Source of the DNA: Clostridiales bacterium
GTDB lineage: Bacteria > Bacillota > Clostridia > Oscillospirales > Oscillospiraceae
Direction: 5' to 3'
Length of the DNA: 42,668 nt
Assembly: GCA_012719235.1 (NCBI GenBank)
Contig: JAAYAR010000156.1
Coordinates: 1 to 42,668, forward strand
The notes under the pieces were generated by a model, which ran no database searches, was not told where the DNA came from, and saw only the letters and a program-made list of their open reading frames with translations. Made by a program: the position numbers and the translations under genes. Each line of letters begins with the position of its first letter. Position 1 is the stretch's first letter. Positions 33,701 through 39,660 of this stretch are shown piece by piece.

Positions 33701-33901
33701 ATGCTTAAAAAGCCTTGACTCCGCTGTTGTTGGTCTCTCTTTCCTGATAATTATTTACTATGGATGAAAAACCGGTATTATAAAGCTGAAGCGTATAAAA
33801 GATAATAGTGAGTCATATATGAATATGCAGGGAAAACAAATCAGTCATTCCATGTATCGGAGTTGTGTAATATTTTAGGAACCGGCAGGAGAACTAATTG
33901 T

Positions 33902-34612
33902 ATGAAATATGAATCAAATTATGAAGTTTCAAGACAGGACGCATTAAAACGTTTTTTGACTTACGATCAAGGACAAATTATTCAAAGACTGGGGTTACAG
34001 TCAGATGATGACTATATTTACATAGAATATTGTAAGTGTATATATCGTTTAGATCGAAAGAAACCCGGTCTGGATCGAAGTAATTTAATTATTATGAGTG
34101 AGAATAATGATTATTCAGCCCCGAACTTCTGGAAAGAAGCGGATTATAATGAAGCGTTGACGCTGTGCGATCTTTTGTGTCATACGGATGAACCTGTTCT
34201 CCTTTCAGAGAATTTCGTCTCACTTCAGAGTTTAAACAGCGTACAAGGAGGAACTACACAATCAACATTGGGAAAAGGGTTATTGAAAGAAACAGAGCAG
34301 TTTTTTGACGGAAAAGATATATTATTGAGTAGTGCTTGCGAAAGCCTGGGAGGTATTGCTATAGGGAAAGGTGATGTGGCATACGAGATTCCATTGTTTG
34401 AGCCGATTCATGCTCGATTTTCGTTTTACGATTCTGATGAGGAATTTGAAGCAAAAATGACTATCATGTTTCCTTCGAATATATGTAATTATCTTTATTT
34501 TGAAACATTGTGGTATGCATCGGCTATTATGCTTGATCGCCTTAAGGAGCTTATCTCAACAAATGAGGAAAAAAAACAGAGAGCAAATATCGGGTTATCT
34601 CACAACCGCTGA
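33902..34612 (+). CDS. DUF3786-family protein
   Basis: The start is ATG 33902 after GGCAGGAG; the open frame reaches 13 codons further upstream without a site. 236 residues. The layout matches DUF3786 as I know it: an N-terminal block (QDALKRFLTYDQGQIIQRLG), the YCKCIYRLDR strand, a central LCDLLCHTDEPVLLSENFVS helix region, GGIAIGKGDVAYEIPLFEPI and the C-terminal YLYFETLWYASAI. Members are found in anaerobes near corrinoid/acetyl-CoA enzymes, but no such gene is nearby and the function is unknown. Base composition is AT-rich like its surroundings. Confidence 0.72.
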   Translation: MKYESNYEVSRQDALKRFLTYDQGQIIQRLGLQSDDDYIYIEYCKCIYRLDRKKPGLDRSNLIIMSENNDYSAPNFWKEADYNEALTLCDLLCHTDEPVLLSENFVSLQSLNSVQGGTTQSTLGKGLLKETEQFFDGKDILLSSACESLGGIAIGKGDVAYEIPLFEPIHARFSFYDSDEEFEAKMTIMFPSNICNYLYFETLWYASAIMLDRLKELISTNEEKKQRANIGLSHNR

Positions 34613-34935
34613 AAGCAGCATATTCCGGTTAATCATATTAAGAACGATCCATATATAAAGGTTTGCTGTGCATCCGCGACCTTTGAATTGCACCCATTGA
34701 TTGAAATTCTATCAGCATATGAACTCTTTTCCACAAAAGGGCGCGCTGCAAAACGGAAATATTCTGCAGCGCGTCCTTTTTTGCCTCGGCGCGGCAAGCA
34801 ACATGAGTTTTCAACTATATAAGTCGAAATATGCGGGAACCTGACTTTATGGCTGAATTCTGACATCTGGTCAGCTGTTTTGCGTACTTATGTCGACAAG
34901 CTGACAGGAGGTTTTTACCACCGGTTTTGCGTAAT
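34613..34935. other. 323-bp spacer between convergent genes
   Basis: It contains one strong terminator (34739-34782) and nothing else recognised. Confidence 0.6.
34739..34782 (+). terminator. Strong intrinsic terminator after the DUF3786 gene
   Basis: A 12-bp stem (GGGCGCGCTGCA with TGCAGCGCGTCC, one G-T pair), 14-nt loop and TTTTTT. Confidence 0.9.
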
Positions 34936-35589
34936 TTAAGGCTGCTGTTTTTGGTTATTACCCCCATCTGTAACAAAGTGAATAGCAGCATTCAAGGCCT
35001 GTTCATCCCCAACGATATAGAGGATATCACCGCTCAGCAGAGATGAGTAGGGTCCGGGAGACAGAATGGTTTGCTCACCCCGTTCGATGGCAACAATTGT
35101 CGCACCGGTCATGTGCCAGAAGTTAAGGTCGCTGATGCTTTTACCCGCTATTGCTGAGGTAGGAGGTACGACGATCTCATAAGGAGTATAAGGAGTGGCT
35201 TTGTTAAGACGCCCCGAAGCATTTACGATGAACTGAATTTTCTCCATAGCAGCGGAGGTTTCGCTGATCTGACGCTCCATCCACGCGAATAGTTCGTTCT
35301 TTGCATTGGTAACGCTCTGTACTTCATGAAACTGCCTGAGAAAATCTGCTGCCTTCTGCACTGATATTATATACACACCACTGTTGCTCTTAACATCGAT
35401 AATACCAACATCCTTGAGCAGGTAGACAGCTTTTCGGATCGTCTCCGGTGAAACACCGTACTGTGAAGATAATACCGAGCGTCCTGACAATTTCTGGCCT
35501 TCCCGGTATTTGCCGCTCACAATATCCTGTGAAATGTCAATTGCAATTTTCCTATATACAGGTAAGGTTGTATTTTTGTTCTTATCCAT
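34936..35589 (-). CDS. BusR-like GntR/RCK_C transcriptional regulator
   Basis: A 217-residue protein with three parts: GntR-type winged helix (VYRKIAIDISQDIVSGKYREG ends the first helix region; QYGVSPETIRKAVYLLKDVG is the recognition helix, residues about 10-75), a helical linker (about 80-125) and a TrkA-C/RCK_C domain (EIVVPPTSAIAGKSISDL ... SLLSGDILYIVGDEQAL, about 140-205). This is the architecture of BusR, the cyclic-di-AMP-responsive repressor of betaine uptake in Lactococcus and Streptococcus. It is divergent from an OpuA-type betaine operon, as a BusR should be. The ligand is inferred, not shown, but domain order and context agree well. Confidence 0.87.
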   Translation of the reverse strand: MDKNKNTTLPVYRKIAIDISQDIVSGKYREGQKLSGRSVLSSQYGVSPETIRKAVYLLKDVGIIDVKSNSGVYIISVQKAADFLRQFHEVQSVTNAKNELFAWMERQISETSAAMEKIQFIVNASGRLNKATPYTPYEIVVPPTSAIAGKSISDLNFWHMTGATIVAIERGEQTILSPGPYSSLLSGDILYIVGDEQALNAAIHFVTDGGNNQKQQP

Positions 35590-35723
35590 GTCGTTTCACC
35601 GTGGTTTTTTGATTTACAGTCATAATTATAAATATTTTACAGCGCCTACAATCTATCACAAAGGACATAGAATGTCAAAAAAATGAGATTTCTGGCTGCT
35701 TTGCAGCAAGAAGCATGCTGAAC

Positions 35724-35765
35724 TTGACAAAGTGACAACCCATTACTATAATACAAGATGTCACT
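35724..35765 (+). promoter_or_regulatory. opuA promoter overlapped by an AGTGACA/TGTCACT operator
   Basis: The promoter is consensus: TTGACA (35724-35729), 17-bp spacer, TATAAT (35747-35752). AGTGACA (35731-35737) starts one base after the -35 box and its perfect inverse TGTCACT (35759-35765) lies at the expected +1. The 21-bp gap between arms places them on the same DNA face, straddling the -10, so a bound tetrameric regulator would block polymerase. From memory, BusR operators are widely spaced AGTGAC-type inverted repeats, which this closely resembles. Confidence 0.82.
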
Positions 35766-35797
35766 ATTATTAAATTCCATAAAAAGGAGAATGTTCT

Positions 35798-36793
35798 GTG
35801 AAAAGACTGGTAAAATACAGCATCTTGTTAATGGCGTTAGTTCTGCTGGTAATTAATTTTACAGCTTGCGCCTCGGTAAAACAGACTAAAACGCTGCGCT
35901 TTGCTGATGTAGGCTGGGACTCGATTTTATTCCACAACGCAGTAGCAGGCACAGTAGCGGAAGTCGTGTTTGGTTATCAATGGACAGAAGTATCCGGAAG
36001 CACTCCGATAACGCATGAAGCGGTGAAAGCCGGAGAGATTGACATACATATGGAAATGTGGACAGACAATTTGCCGAGTTACCAAAGTGATATTTCAGCA
36101 GGCTATCTTAAAGAAGTAAGCCTCAACTTTGATGACAATGCTCAGGGCCTCTATGTGCCGCGTTATGTTATCGAGGGAGATCCCGAGCGAGGCATCGAAG
36201 CGGTCGCACCGGATTTGAAAACAGTAGCAGACCTTAAGAATTACGCATCTTTGTTCCGGGATCCCGAAGATCCTTCAAAGGGGATTATCTACGGCGGAAT
36301 TGCAGGCTGGGAGATAACAGAAATCATTTACAAAAAGTATCTGCACTATGGTCTTGATGATACCTTCAATTATATAGAGCCGGGAACAGATGCCGCAACC
36401 AGTGCCGTGCTGGTATCGGCATATGATAAAGGCGAGCCGGTGGTTGCTTATTATTGGGAACCGACCTGGCTGCTGGGTAAGTATGATTTTGTCCTTCTTG
36501 AAGATGAACCGTATGACCAGGAGTTGTTCTTCGAAGGCAAGACCGAGTGTCCTTCAGTGAAAGTTACAATATGCACAAGCAATGACTTTTATGAAAGCGA
36601 ACCCGAGTTTATTGAATTTTTATCCAAATACCGAACGTCTTCGGCACTGACAAGCCAGGCCCTTGCCTATATGGAGGAAACGGGTGCGGATTATAAAACC
36701 ACAGCAATATGGTTTTTAAATGAGCATCGGGATATGATAGAAGGCTGGCTGAACGCAGAACAGGCTGAAAAATTATATGCAGAGATTGGATAA
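35798..36793 (+). CDS. opuAC: Glycine betaine/choline ABC transporter substrate-binding lipoprotein
   Basis: A 331-residue lipoprotein: signal helix, FTAC lipobox with Cys24, then an OpuAC-type periplasmic fold. It opens with LRFADVGWDSILFHNAVAG and has HMEMWTDNLP and VVAYYWEPTWLLGKYDFV; the aromatic residues Trp and Tyr of these blocks form the cation-pi cage for the trimethylammonium group. It starts at GTG 35798 after AAGGAG. It is the first gene of a three-gene operon under the repeat-flanked promoter. Betaine is the most likely ligand; choline or carnitine cannot be excluded. Confidence 0.91.
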   Translation: MKRLVKYSILLMALVLLVINFTACASVKQTKTLRFADVGWDSILFHNAVAGTVAEVVFGYQWTEVSGSTPITHEAVKAGEIDIHMEMWTDNLPSYQSDISAGYLKEVSLNFDDNAQGLYVPRYVIEGDPERGIEAVAPDLKTVADLKNYASLFRDPEDPSKGIIYGGIAGWEITEIIYKKYLHYGLDDTFNYIEPGTDAATSAVLVSAYDKGEPVVAYYWEPTWLLGKYDFVLLEDEPYDQELFFEGKTECPSVKVTICTSNDFYESEPEFIEFLSKYRTSSALTSQALAYMEETGADYKTTAIWFLNEHRDMIEGWLNAEQAEKLYAEIG

Positions 36794-36795
36794 GG

Positions 36796-37668
36796 GTGAA
36801 CGTGGACTGGCTATTTGATTTTCCTTATAGAATAAAACTCAATACGGACGCCATAGATAAGGCTGTTCGGGGTTTTGCTGCAGCCTATTCCGCTTTTTTT
36901 GACGGAATCAAGATGACACTTACAAGCTTTGTGGGGGCAATCAACTGGGTTTTAAGTCATGTTCCCTGGTTTATACTGGTGGCACTTGTGTTTTTTCTCG
37001 GATATAAGGGCCATAAGAAAGTCCGCTCAGGCATTTTGTACAGTATCCTGCTGTGTATTATAGGCATATTTGGCTTATGGAGCTTGATGAACCTGACGCT
37101 TTCCATTGTACTTGCCGGTGTGATAGTCGCACTGTTATTCGGCCTTCCCATTGGCGTTCTGCTTTCCAACTCCGAACACGCCAATCGACTGATAAGGCCG
37201 CTTCTGGATATGATGCAGACTATGCCGGTGTTTGTGTATTTGATCCCGGCAGTAATCTTTTTTGGTATGGGATCGGCATCCGCTGTTATTGCGACCGTAA
37301 TCTATGCTATGGTCCCTGTTATTCGTCTGACCAGCCTTGGTATTCGTCAGGTTAATACCGAAGTGGTCGAAGCTGCGCGTTCCTTCGGTTCCACCAAGCT
37401 GCAATTGCTTTTTAAGGTGCAGGTACCGCAGGCGCTTCCTACGATTATGGCCGGCGTTAATCAAACATTGATGATGGCTATGTCTATGGTGGTTACCTGT
37501 TCAATGATAGGTGCACGCGGTCTGGGTAATGAGGTGCTTATTGCGGTAAATCGGATTGAAATATCCCGGGGATTTATTGCGGGCAGTGCGGTTGTTATTT
37601 TAGCGATCCTTCTTGACCGGTTGACACAGGGGTGGTTTTCTGAGAAGAAAAAAGAAGGGGGTGAGTAA
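36796..37668 (+). CDS. opuAB: Glycine betaine ABC transporter permease
   Basis: A 290-residue integral membrane permease, GTG start 2 bp after the preceding stop. About seven hydrophobic helices are visible. The permease EAA-type loop reads VVEAARSFGSTKLQLLFKVQ, with the PQALPTIMAGVNQTLMMAMS continuation typical of the OpuA/ProW family. It forms the channel with the ATPase encoded next. Unlike the Lactococcus form, the binding protein is a separate gene rather than fused to the permease. Confidence 0.93.
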   Translation: MNVDWLFDFPYRIKLNTDAIDKAVRGFAAAYSAFFDGIKMTLTSFVGAINWVLSHVPWFILVALVFFLGYKGHKKVRSGILYSILLCIIGIFGLWSLMNLTLSIVLAGVIVALLFGLPIGVLLSNSEHANRLIRPLLDMMQTMPVFVYLIPAVIFFGMGSASAVIATVIYAMVPVIRLTSLGIRQVNTEVVEAARSFGSTKLQLLFKVQVPQALPTIMAGVNQTLMMAMSMVVTCSMIGARGLGNEVLIAVNRIEISRGFIAGSAVVILAILLDRLTQGWFSEKKKEGGE

Positions 37669-37670
37669 TT

Positions 37671-38846
37671 TTGAGTGATATTATTGTTGAGACCCGGCAT
37701 GTATCAAAGCTGTACGGTATACGCCGCGAGGATGCTATGAGAATGCTGCGAAAAGGTGCCACAAAAGAGGAGGTTCTGAAAGAAACCGGAGTGACAACTG
37801 CGCTATACGATATTAGTCTTCAGATTCCTCGCGGTAAAATATTCGTTATCATTGGATTGTCCGGTTCCGGAAAATCCACGATGATCCGCTGTTTTAATCG
37901 CCTGCACCGCCCAACCTCCGGGACTATTTTATTCGACGGCGTTGATTTGATGAAGCTTTCAAAACAGGAACTGCGCGAATTCAGAAGGCGCAAAGTGGCA
38001 ATGGTTTTTCAGTCCTTCGGGTTGATGAATCATCGTAATGTGCTGGGAAATGTGGCTTATGGACTTGAGGTTTCCGGCATGGCTCGCGGGGAACGCGAGC
38101 AAAGGGCCAGAGAAGCTATTGAGCTGGTGAGCCTGAAAGGCTGGGAAGAAGCAATGATCGACAGCTTGTCGGGCGGTATGCGCCAGCGTGTCGGATTAGC
38201 CCGCGCTCTGGCCAACGACCCTGAAGTTTTGCTGATGGATGAACCGTTTTCTGCGCTGGACCCGCTGGTTCGTAAAGACATGCAGTTCGAACTGTTATCT
38301 ATTCAACGCAGGCTTGGGAAAACTGTGATATTTATCACTCATGATATAGATGAAGCTTTCCGACTCGGAGACATGGTTGCCATAATGCGAGACGGGCGTT
38401 TAATTCAGGTTGATACACCTGAAGGGATGAGTACCAAACCCGCAAATGATTATGTCAGGCGCTTTATCGATTCTGCGGATAAATCAAAGGTATTAACGGT
38501 GAGAAATATTATGATTACGCCTGTCAGCCTGATTAAGCCGGATGACGGTATTGACCACGCCCTGCGTGTAATGCGATCAAATGCAATATCCTCGGTTTAT
38601 GTAGTGGATAATCAAATGAAGCTTACCGGAATTTTAACTCTCCTGGATGCAGTCAGGGCTAAACGCGATAATATAGAACTCTCGAAAATAATCTTAAAAG
38701 ACATTGCCAAAACAAGTATAGATGCTTCAGTAGAAGAAATAATGCCTTTGGCAGTTGAATCACCCTATCCTTTGACCGTAGTGGATGAGGAGCAGCGGTT
38801 GCTGGGCATCGTAACCAAGGCCAGTGTTTTATCCTCATTACTATAA
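37671..38846 (+). CDS. opuAA: Glycine betaine ABC transporter ATPase with tandem CBS domains
   Basis: A 391-residue ATPase, TTG start 2 bp after the permease stop. Walker A GLSGSGKST (62-70), Q-loop VFQSFGLMNHRN, signature LSGGMRQRV (from residue 166), Walker B LLMDEPFSALDP and switch THDIDEAF are complete. Residues about 275-391 are two CBS domains (NIMITPVSLIKPDDGIDHAL; VEEIMPLAVESPYPLTVVDE). In OpuA-type transporters the CBS pair senses ionic strength and can bind cyclic-di-AMP, giving control of transport activity itself. Together with the BusR-like regulator the system could be controlled twice by one nucleotide. Confidence 0.93.
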   Translation: MSDIIVETRHVSKLYGIRREDAMRMLRKGATKEEVLKETGVTTALYDISLQIPRGKIFVIIGLSGSGKSTMIRCFNRLHRPTSGTILFDGVDLMKLSKQELREFRRRKVAMVFQSFGLMNHRNVLGNVAYGLEVSGMARGEREQRAREAIELVSLKGWEEAMIDSLSGGMRQRVGLARALANDPEVLLMDEPFSALDPLVRKDMQFELLSIQRRLGKTVIFITHDIDEAFRLGDMVAIMRDGRLIQVDTPEGMSTKPANDYVRRFIDSADKSKVLTVRNIMITPVSLIKPDDGIDHALRVMRSNAISSVYVVDNQMKLTGILTLLDAVRAKRDNIELSKIILKDIAKTSIDASVEEIMPLAVESPYPLTVVDEEQRLLGIVTKASVLSSLL

Positions 38847-39201: not shown

Positions 39202-39219
39202 TGAAAGGGTGTTGTTTTG

Positions 39220-39660
39220 ATGGATCAGACGCTGGTACTTAAGGCCATTGCTGATGAAACCAGGATGAAGATACTGTCGCTGCTGCTTAGGCACAACTAC
39301 TGTGTGCGGGCGCTGGCAAGAAAGCTGGGACTTTCCGAGAGCGCGGTCTCCCAGCATTTAAAGGTATTACGGGATGCCGGACTTCTGACCGGAGAAAAGA
39401 AGGGCTATTTCATCCATTATGATGTAAATCGGAATGTCCTTCATACTCTTGCTGCCGAGATCGAGGCATTGGCCTGTGTGGAGCGGGCGGCGTGCACGCC
39501 TGAAGCAGGCGAGTGTTCTTCTTCGGAGCAGGAACGCTGCCATGTGAAAAAACATAATTGCAGCGAGGAAGTCAAAGAGTTCTGCCATGGCAAAGATCGA
39601 GTGAAGGGAGAATTCGGCCGTGAGCACCACAGGCATTGTCAATGCCACAAACCTGAGTAA
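39220..39660 (+). CDS. ArsR-family regulator with Cys/His-rich tail
   Basis: A 146-residue repressor; ATG 39220 follows AAAGGGTG (a TTG one codon earlier is the alternative). Residues 1-85 form the winged helix (LKAIADETRMKILSLLL, SESAVSQHLKVLRDAGLL, KGYFIHYDVN). The last 60 residues are rich in Cys and His (CVERAAC, ECSSSEQERCHVKKHNC, HHRHCQCH), probably metal ligands. The repressor would release DNA on binding a soft metal or metalloid such as Zn, Cd, As or Ni. The genes it should control are broken: the ABC ATPase gene that overlaps its end is dead. Confidence 0.9.
   Translation: MDQTLVLKAIADETRMKILSLLLRHNYCVRALARKLGLSESAVSQHLKVLRDAGLLTGEKKGYFIHYDVNRNVLHTLAAEIEALACVERAACTPEAGECSSSEQERCHVKKHNCSEEVKEFCHGKDRVKGEFGREHHRHCQCHKPE

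Follow-up and report, generated by a model that had tools for sequence, protein, structure and literature searches.

Organization of the locus

The window, a 42,668-nucleotide stretch of DNA from a clostridial genome, carries the gene of a GntR/RCK_C regulator on the reverse strand and a divergent three-gene importer operon on the forward strand (35798-38846), separated by an intergenic region of 208 bp (35590-35797; Table 1). The preliminary description had identified a GntR/RCK_C protein divergent from opuA, and both its coordinates and the succession of Pfam domains agree with our annotation (GntR and TrkA_C, then OpuAC, BPD_transp and ABC_tran with CBS). Pfam and NCBIfam together recover an OpuA/ProU-type gene set, comprising an OpuAC substrate-binding protein, a BPD permease and a ProV-type ATPase with a CBS domain; the substrate-binding protein is the one OpuAC protein found in the genome. 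A search of the window for Rfam riboswitches found none. The regulator gene is convergent with a gene for a DUF3786 protein (33863-34612, forward strand), and the gene at 39217-39660 (forward strand), beyond the operon, encodes an ArsR-family regulator whose C-terminal tail is rich in Cys and His and which may sense a metal.

Table 1 Features of the regulator and importer locus (positions in the window).
Feature	Position	Strand	Remarks
Terminator-like hairpin	34742-34773	-	Downstream of the busR-like gene
busR-like gene	34936-35589	-	217 aa; GntR winged helix, coiled coil, RCK_C/TrkA_C; Pfam GntR 2e-11, TrkA_C 7e-16
Possible promoter of the busR-like gene, TTGACA-N17-TAGATT	35650-35678	-	10/12; consensus match only; outside the operator
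-35 element TTGACA	35724-35729	+	
Operator AGTGACA-N21-TGTCACT (= GAC-N23-GTC)	35731-35765		Both arms perfect; similar sites recur in relatives
-10 element TATAAT	35747-35752	+	Inside the operator spacer
Substrate-binding lipoprotein, OpuAC family	35798-36793	+	Pfam OpuAC 2e-46; closest solved relative 7yle, 9.6e-27
ProW/OpuAB-type permease	36796-37668	+	Pfam BPD_transp_1; NCBIfam choline/betaine permease models below cut-off
ProV/OpuAA-type ATPase with CBS domain	37671-38846	+	TIGR01186 proV 401 bits versus cut-off 327; CBS

The importer could transport choline, DMSP or a different betaine instead of glycine betaine, and a switch at this locus would then govern nutrient acquisition no less than osmoprotection. 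Among solved structures, the DMSP-binding RnDmpX (7yle; PMC10030565) is closest to the substrate-binding protein. In the alignment, three of the four tryptophans of the DmpX cage (35, 84 and 202) are kept, as is Tyr200, and Trp152 and Glu113 are not; weak matches to models of choline-binding proteins and ProX, which stay under the cut-off, point the same way. The ATPase, however, passes the betaine/proline/choline subfamily model and possesses a CBS domain, as do osmoregulatory ATPases, and BusR loci of relatives regularly adjoin opu-type operons. On balance we regard a substrate other than glycine betaine as rather unlikely, although it is the most serious of the alternatives considered here.

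Identity of the regulator and its presumptive signal

By sequence and by predicted fold, the regulator is a BusR homologue. A phmmer search against solved structures matched 7wjg (4.8e-44), S. mutans BusR according to its structure title, and the S. agalactiae BusR entries 7b5t, 7b5y and 7oz3 (5e-40), and the window protein aligns to the BusR structures end to end and gap-free. Its AlphaFold2 model (pLDDT 88.4) comprises a winged helix, a single long helix (77-131) and an RCK_C fold, and the top 16 Foldseek matches of this model are all BusR entries, including a c-di-AMP-bound RCK_C domain. The length of the coiled-coil ruler is kept, the interval between R53 and W159 measuring 105 residues in the window protein, in S. 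agalactiae BusR and in 7wjg.

Ten of the 13 published pocket, rim and autoinhibition positions (PMC8517857) are identical to those of S. agalactiae (I153, N157, W159, H160, A164, T165, I166, G180, P181 and Y13). F182 is conservatively replaced by Y, a substitution described as frequent (PMC8517857), and the pocket changes are G154 to S and V158 to F, the latter being the majority residue among 114 relatives. An RCK_C domain without the c-di-AMP pocket, which the preliminary description would have taken as speaking against its reading, is thus not what the residue comparison reveals. Among the DNA contacts tested previously (PMC8517857), R38, R53, K54 and G72 are kept, and K36 and G70 are replaced by S and N, respectively.

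The genome also encodes a CdaA-type diadenylate cyclase (DAC and CdaA_N domains), the end of whose gene is overlapped by a YbbR (CdaR) gene. Candidates for a GdpP-type phosphodiesterase are three DHH proteins, whose open frames measure 706, 681 and 341 aa; two of them occupy long frames, as expected for GdpP. Under an alternative in which the regulator represses through its operator but the RCK_C domain responds mainly to ionic strength, K+ or another nucleotide, the differences from S. agalactiae at positions 154 and 158 would be readily understood, and DNA binding by L. lactis BusR is indeed dependent on ionic strength (reviewed in PMC10243994). This seems improbable given that the remaining pocket, the polar rim (N157 and H160) and the autoinhibition patch are kept, that F158 is the family majority and that the genes for c-di-AMP synthesis are present in the genome, all of which favour c-di-AMP as the signal.

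A second GntR-RCK_C protein of the same genome (C61; L033:6647-7360, minus strand) is 37% identical to the window regulator. Its gene is divergent from that of an MFS transporter and lies upstream of genes for a B12-binding protein and an octopine-dehydrogenase-like protein, and its upstream region contains no clear BusR-type operator.

A promoter-embedded operator

The importer promoter, TTGACA-N17-TATAAT (35724-35752), matches the sigma-70 consensus at 12 of 12 positions. The operator starts 1 bp past the -35 element, spans the -10 element and extends to the expected +1. The perfect AGTGACA/TGTCACT repeat with a 21-bp gap, and its position between -35 and +1 of a consensus promoter, had both been read correctly in the preliminary description, whereas the label 'textbook' proved too generous: in the published convention (GAC-N22-GTC) the operator reads GAC-N23-GTC, one base pair longer than all four experimentally determined BusR sites, which have a spacing of 22 (PMC8517857). 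The comparison with known BusR operators thus holds for motif and promoter position but not for spacing. A genome search proposed for further AGTGACA-N21-TGTCACT sites yielded no second perfect copy in 2.42 Mb. A single other place, a GC-rich site, lies within two mismatches, and the window site is the only clean match in fixed-gap searches allowing up to two mismatches. The more permissive pattern TGACA-N20..26-TGTCA occurs at 17 places, about the chance expectation; those inspected fall mostly inside coding sequence and none is promoter-embedded, and they were rejected as additional operators.

A repeat with 7-bp arms is unremarkable by itself, because one with a spacer of 15-30 turns up in 23% of shuffled versions of the 208-bp intergenic region; the whole window has 113 such repeats. 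The weight for the operator being real comes from conservation among relatives. A scan of a genome collection confirmed at least 528 relatives of the regulator; one row of the alignment that served as its query included four unsourced N-terminal letters of S. agalactiae BusR, which are excluded from the residue counts. The best 80 of these at least 528 relatives include proteins of Clostridium, Anaerocolumna, Anaerotignum, Lysinibacillus, Enterococcus, Vagococcus, Streptococcus and spirochaete metagenome-assembled genomes (MAGs), and of one MAG labelled Anaerolineaceae. Many BusR relatives among the matches listed adjoin opu-type operons.

We scanned for a TTGACA-type -35 element followed by an inverted repeat, allowing spacings of 17-29 equally and using the reversed sequence as control. 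Among the matches listed, GAC-N22-GTC accounts for 31 sites, N23 for 7, N24 for 2 and N26 for 1; the 40 sites at spacings 22-24 compare with 0 in the reversed controls, whose sole match has a spacing of 29. A weighted-matrix scan, restricted to the top-scoring site of each locus, found 37, 19 and 4 sites at spacings 22, 23 and 24, against 2, 4 and 1 in the control. Streptococcus ferus, our stand-in for the characterised streptococcal system, has a spacing of 22, as published. The promoter-embedded inverted repeat is not a product of chance and recurs in dozens of BusR loci. That the window repeat is itself a chance match unrelated to the adjoining regulator is hardly credible: generic 7-bp-arm repeats are common in the shuffles, but the BusR motif TGAC-N22..24-GTCA appears in only 0.6% of them, and the same motif returns at the same promoter position in relatives.

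Spacing classes as a lineage trait

Spacing follows lineage, with 22 in Lactobacillales, Lysinibacillus and (mostly) Clostridium, 23 in the clade of the window protein and 24 in an Anaerotignum group. On a tree of 112 proteins, 56 rows of which have a spacing state, the trait changes 5 times, and 200 shuffles of the labels never gave fewer than 15 changes; with Lactobacillales removed, 4 changes compare with a shuffle minimum of 10. The window protein belongs to an 11-member clade (SH-aLRT 99) that lies apart from the streptococcal BusR clade and comprises Treponema/Spirochaetaceae MAGs, Eubacteriaceae MAGs and four genomes of the same order. All members of this clade with a confident operator have a spacing of 23, as does L115 when read by hand; the L037 site is ambiguous, and those of L116-L117 are weak. 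In the nearest relatives, the operator is located just downstream of the -10 element, and in the window it covers that element.

The R53-W159 interval is 105 residues in nearly all proteins of each spacing class, and coiled-coil length was therefore rejected as the cause of the spacing difference. Residue columns that separate 22 from 23/24 do exist (for example, 148, 31, 37 and 52 in S. agalactiae numbering) and are confounded with phylogeny. Likewise, the correlation of residue 36 with half-site type (H with GTGAC-CAC, Y with GTAAC/CTGAC-AAC) follows clades. We favour, with some reserve, the view that BusR operators form heritable spacing classes (22, 23 and 24) that change rarely, the window operator being a 23-bp member; because spacing varies at constant coiled-coil length, the ruler would be set or tolerated by something besides that length. 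We found no description of spacing classes in the published BusR work examined, and the ruler has been probed in print with changes of +5 and -10 bp only (PMC8517857). The 22-, 23- and 24-bp classes offer a direct and inexpensive way of testing the molecular-ruler model proposed there.

A putative BusR-opu switch

Our results indicate that the locus is very probably a BusR-opu osmolyte-import switch. In the scenario we propose, c-di-AMP would be made by the CdaA of the genome at high internal K+ or osmolyte and bound by a tetrameric GntR-RCK_C repressor at its RCK_C domains. The loaded repressor would then straddle the -10 element, its paired winged helices resting on both half-sites, and block RNA polymerase. 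Under hyperosmotic stress, c-di-AMP would fall, the repressor would release the operator and the betaine-type importer would be made. The c-di-AMP control of osmolyte import claimed in the preliminary description is in keeping with the BusR homology, the largely kept pocket, the repressor-like operator position and the c-di-AMP synthesis genes; ligand binding, DNA binding, repression and the tetramer are inferred from the characterised BusR proteins of S. agalactiae and L. lactis. Counting against the switch are the spacing of 23, the G154S and V158F changes, the replacement of K36 by S and of G70 by N, and the downstream position of the operator in the nearest relatives.

The locus shares with the BusR-busA(AB) systems of S. 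agalactiae and L. lactis a GntR-coiled coil-RCK_C protein of equal length and fold and, at the promoter of an ABC importer for betaine, an overlapping operator of inverted GAC/GTC half-sites. It differs in having 23 rather than 22 bp between GAC and GTC and in its transporter, a three-gene operon for substrate-binding protein, permease and ATPase as opposed to an ATPase with a fused permease-substrate-binding protein. The regulator gene is divergent in the window, immediately upstream in L. lactis and unlinked in S. agalactiae (GBS), and one operator is seen in the window compared with two in GBS. The gene set of substrate-binding protein, permease and ATPase is also common to the DmpXWV and ProXWV importers, and the substrate-binding protein is closest to 7yle; unlike these, the window importer appears to be under the control of a BusR-type repressor.

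In C. difficile, BusR reportedly controls BusAA-AB (Oberkampf 2022). That c-di-AMP study is cited in PMC10243994. BusR-type regulators were already stated to occur in Clostridium (PMC6108528; PMC5919688), and the locus is therefore a further instance of an established system. The Clostridium homologues share the domain architecture of the window regulator; the opu-type neighbours and inverted-repeat operators of the clostridial loci were found in the present analysis, and the latter mostly have a spacing of 22, compared with 23 in the window's clade. The novelty implied by the phrase 'outside Lactobacillales' consequently does not stand, all the more as our scan showed the system to be widespread among Clostridia, Lysinibacillus and spirochaete MAGs. 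What the locus would add is a clean BusR-opu switch for a clostridial genome, together with the recurrence of a promoter-embedded operator across Firmicutes and in spirochaete MAGs.

Other BusR-type loci

Three clostridial loci (L040:6105-6172, L095:6037-6102 and L098:5804-5869) have two tandem BusR-type operators separated by 34-36 bp, an arrangement reminiscent of the paired sites in S. agalactiae. In Treponema/Spirochaetaceae MAGs (L034-L037 and L047), BusR adjoins opu-type genes. The proteins of L034-L037 are the closest named relatives of the window protein among the matches listed (47-49%), a closeness that hints at transfer of BusR between clostridia and spirochaetes.

In genomes of the same family, a BusR-like GntR-RCK_C protein is fused, according to Pfam, to an APH/choline-kinase domain in one open frame (L008:1495-3051, forward strand; L012:553-2112, reverse strand; L022:565-1824, reverse strand, split or partial). 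In L156, the fusion gene lies directly 5' of a gene whose product resembles, by eye, a BCCT-type choline/betaine transporter. The kinase part is 58-62% identical to LicA-like parts of those lic-type loci that also adjoin a BCCT-like transporter; this architecture suggests that c-di-AMP controls both choline uptake and the metabolism of phosphorylcholine.
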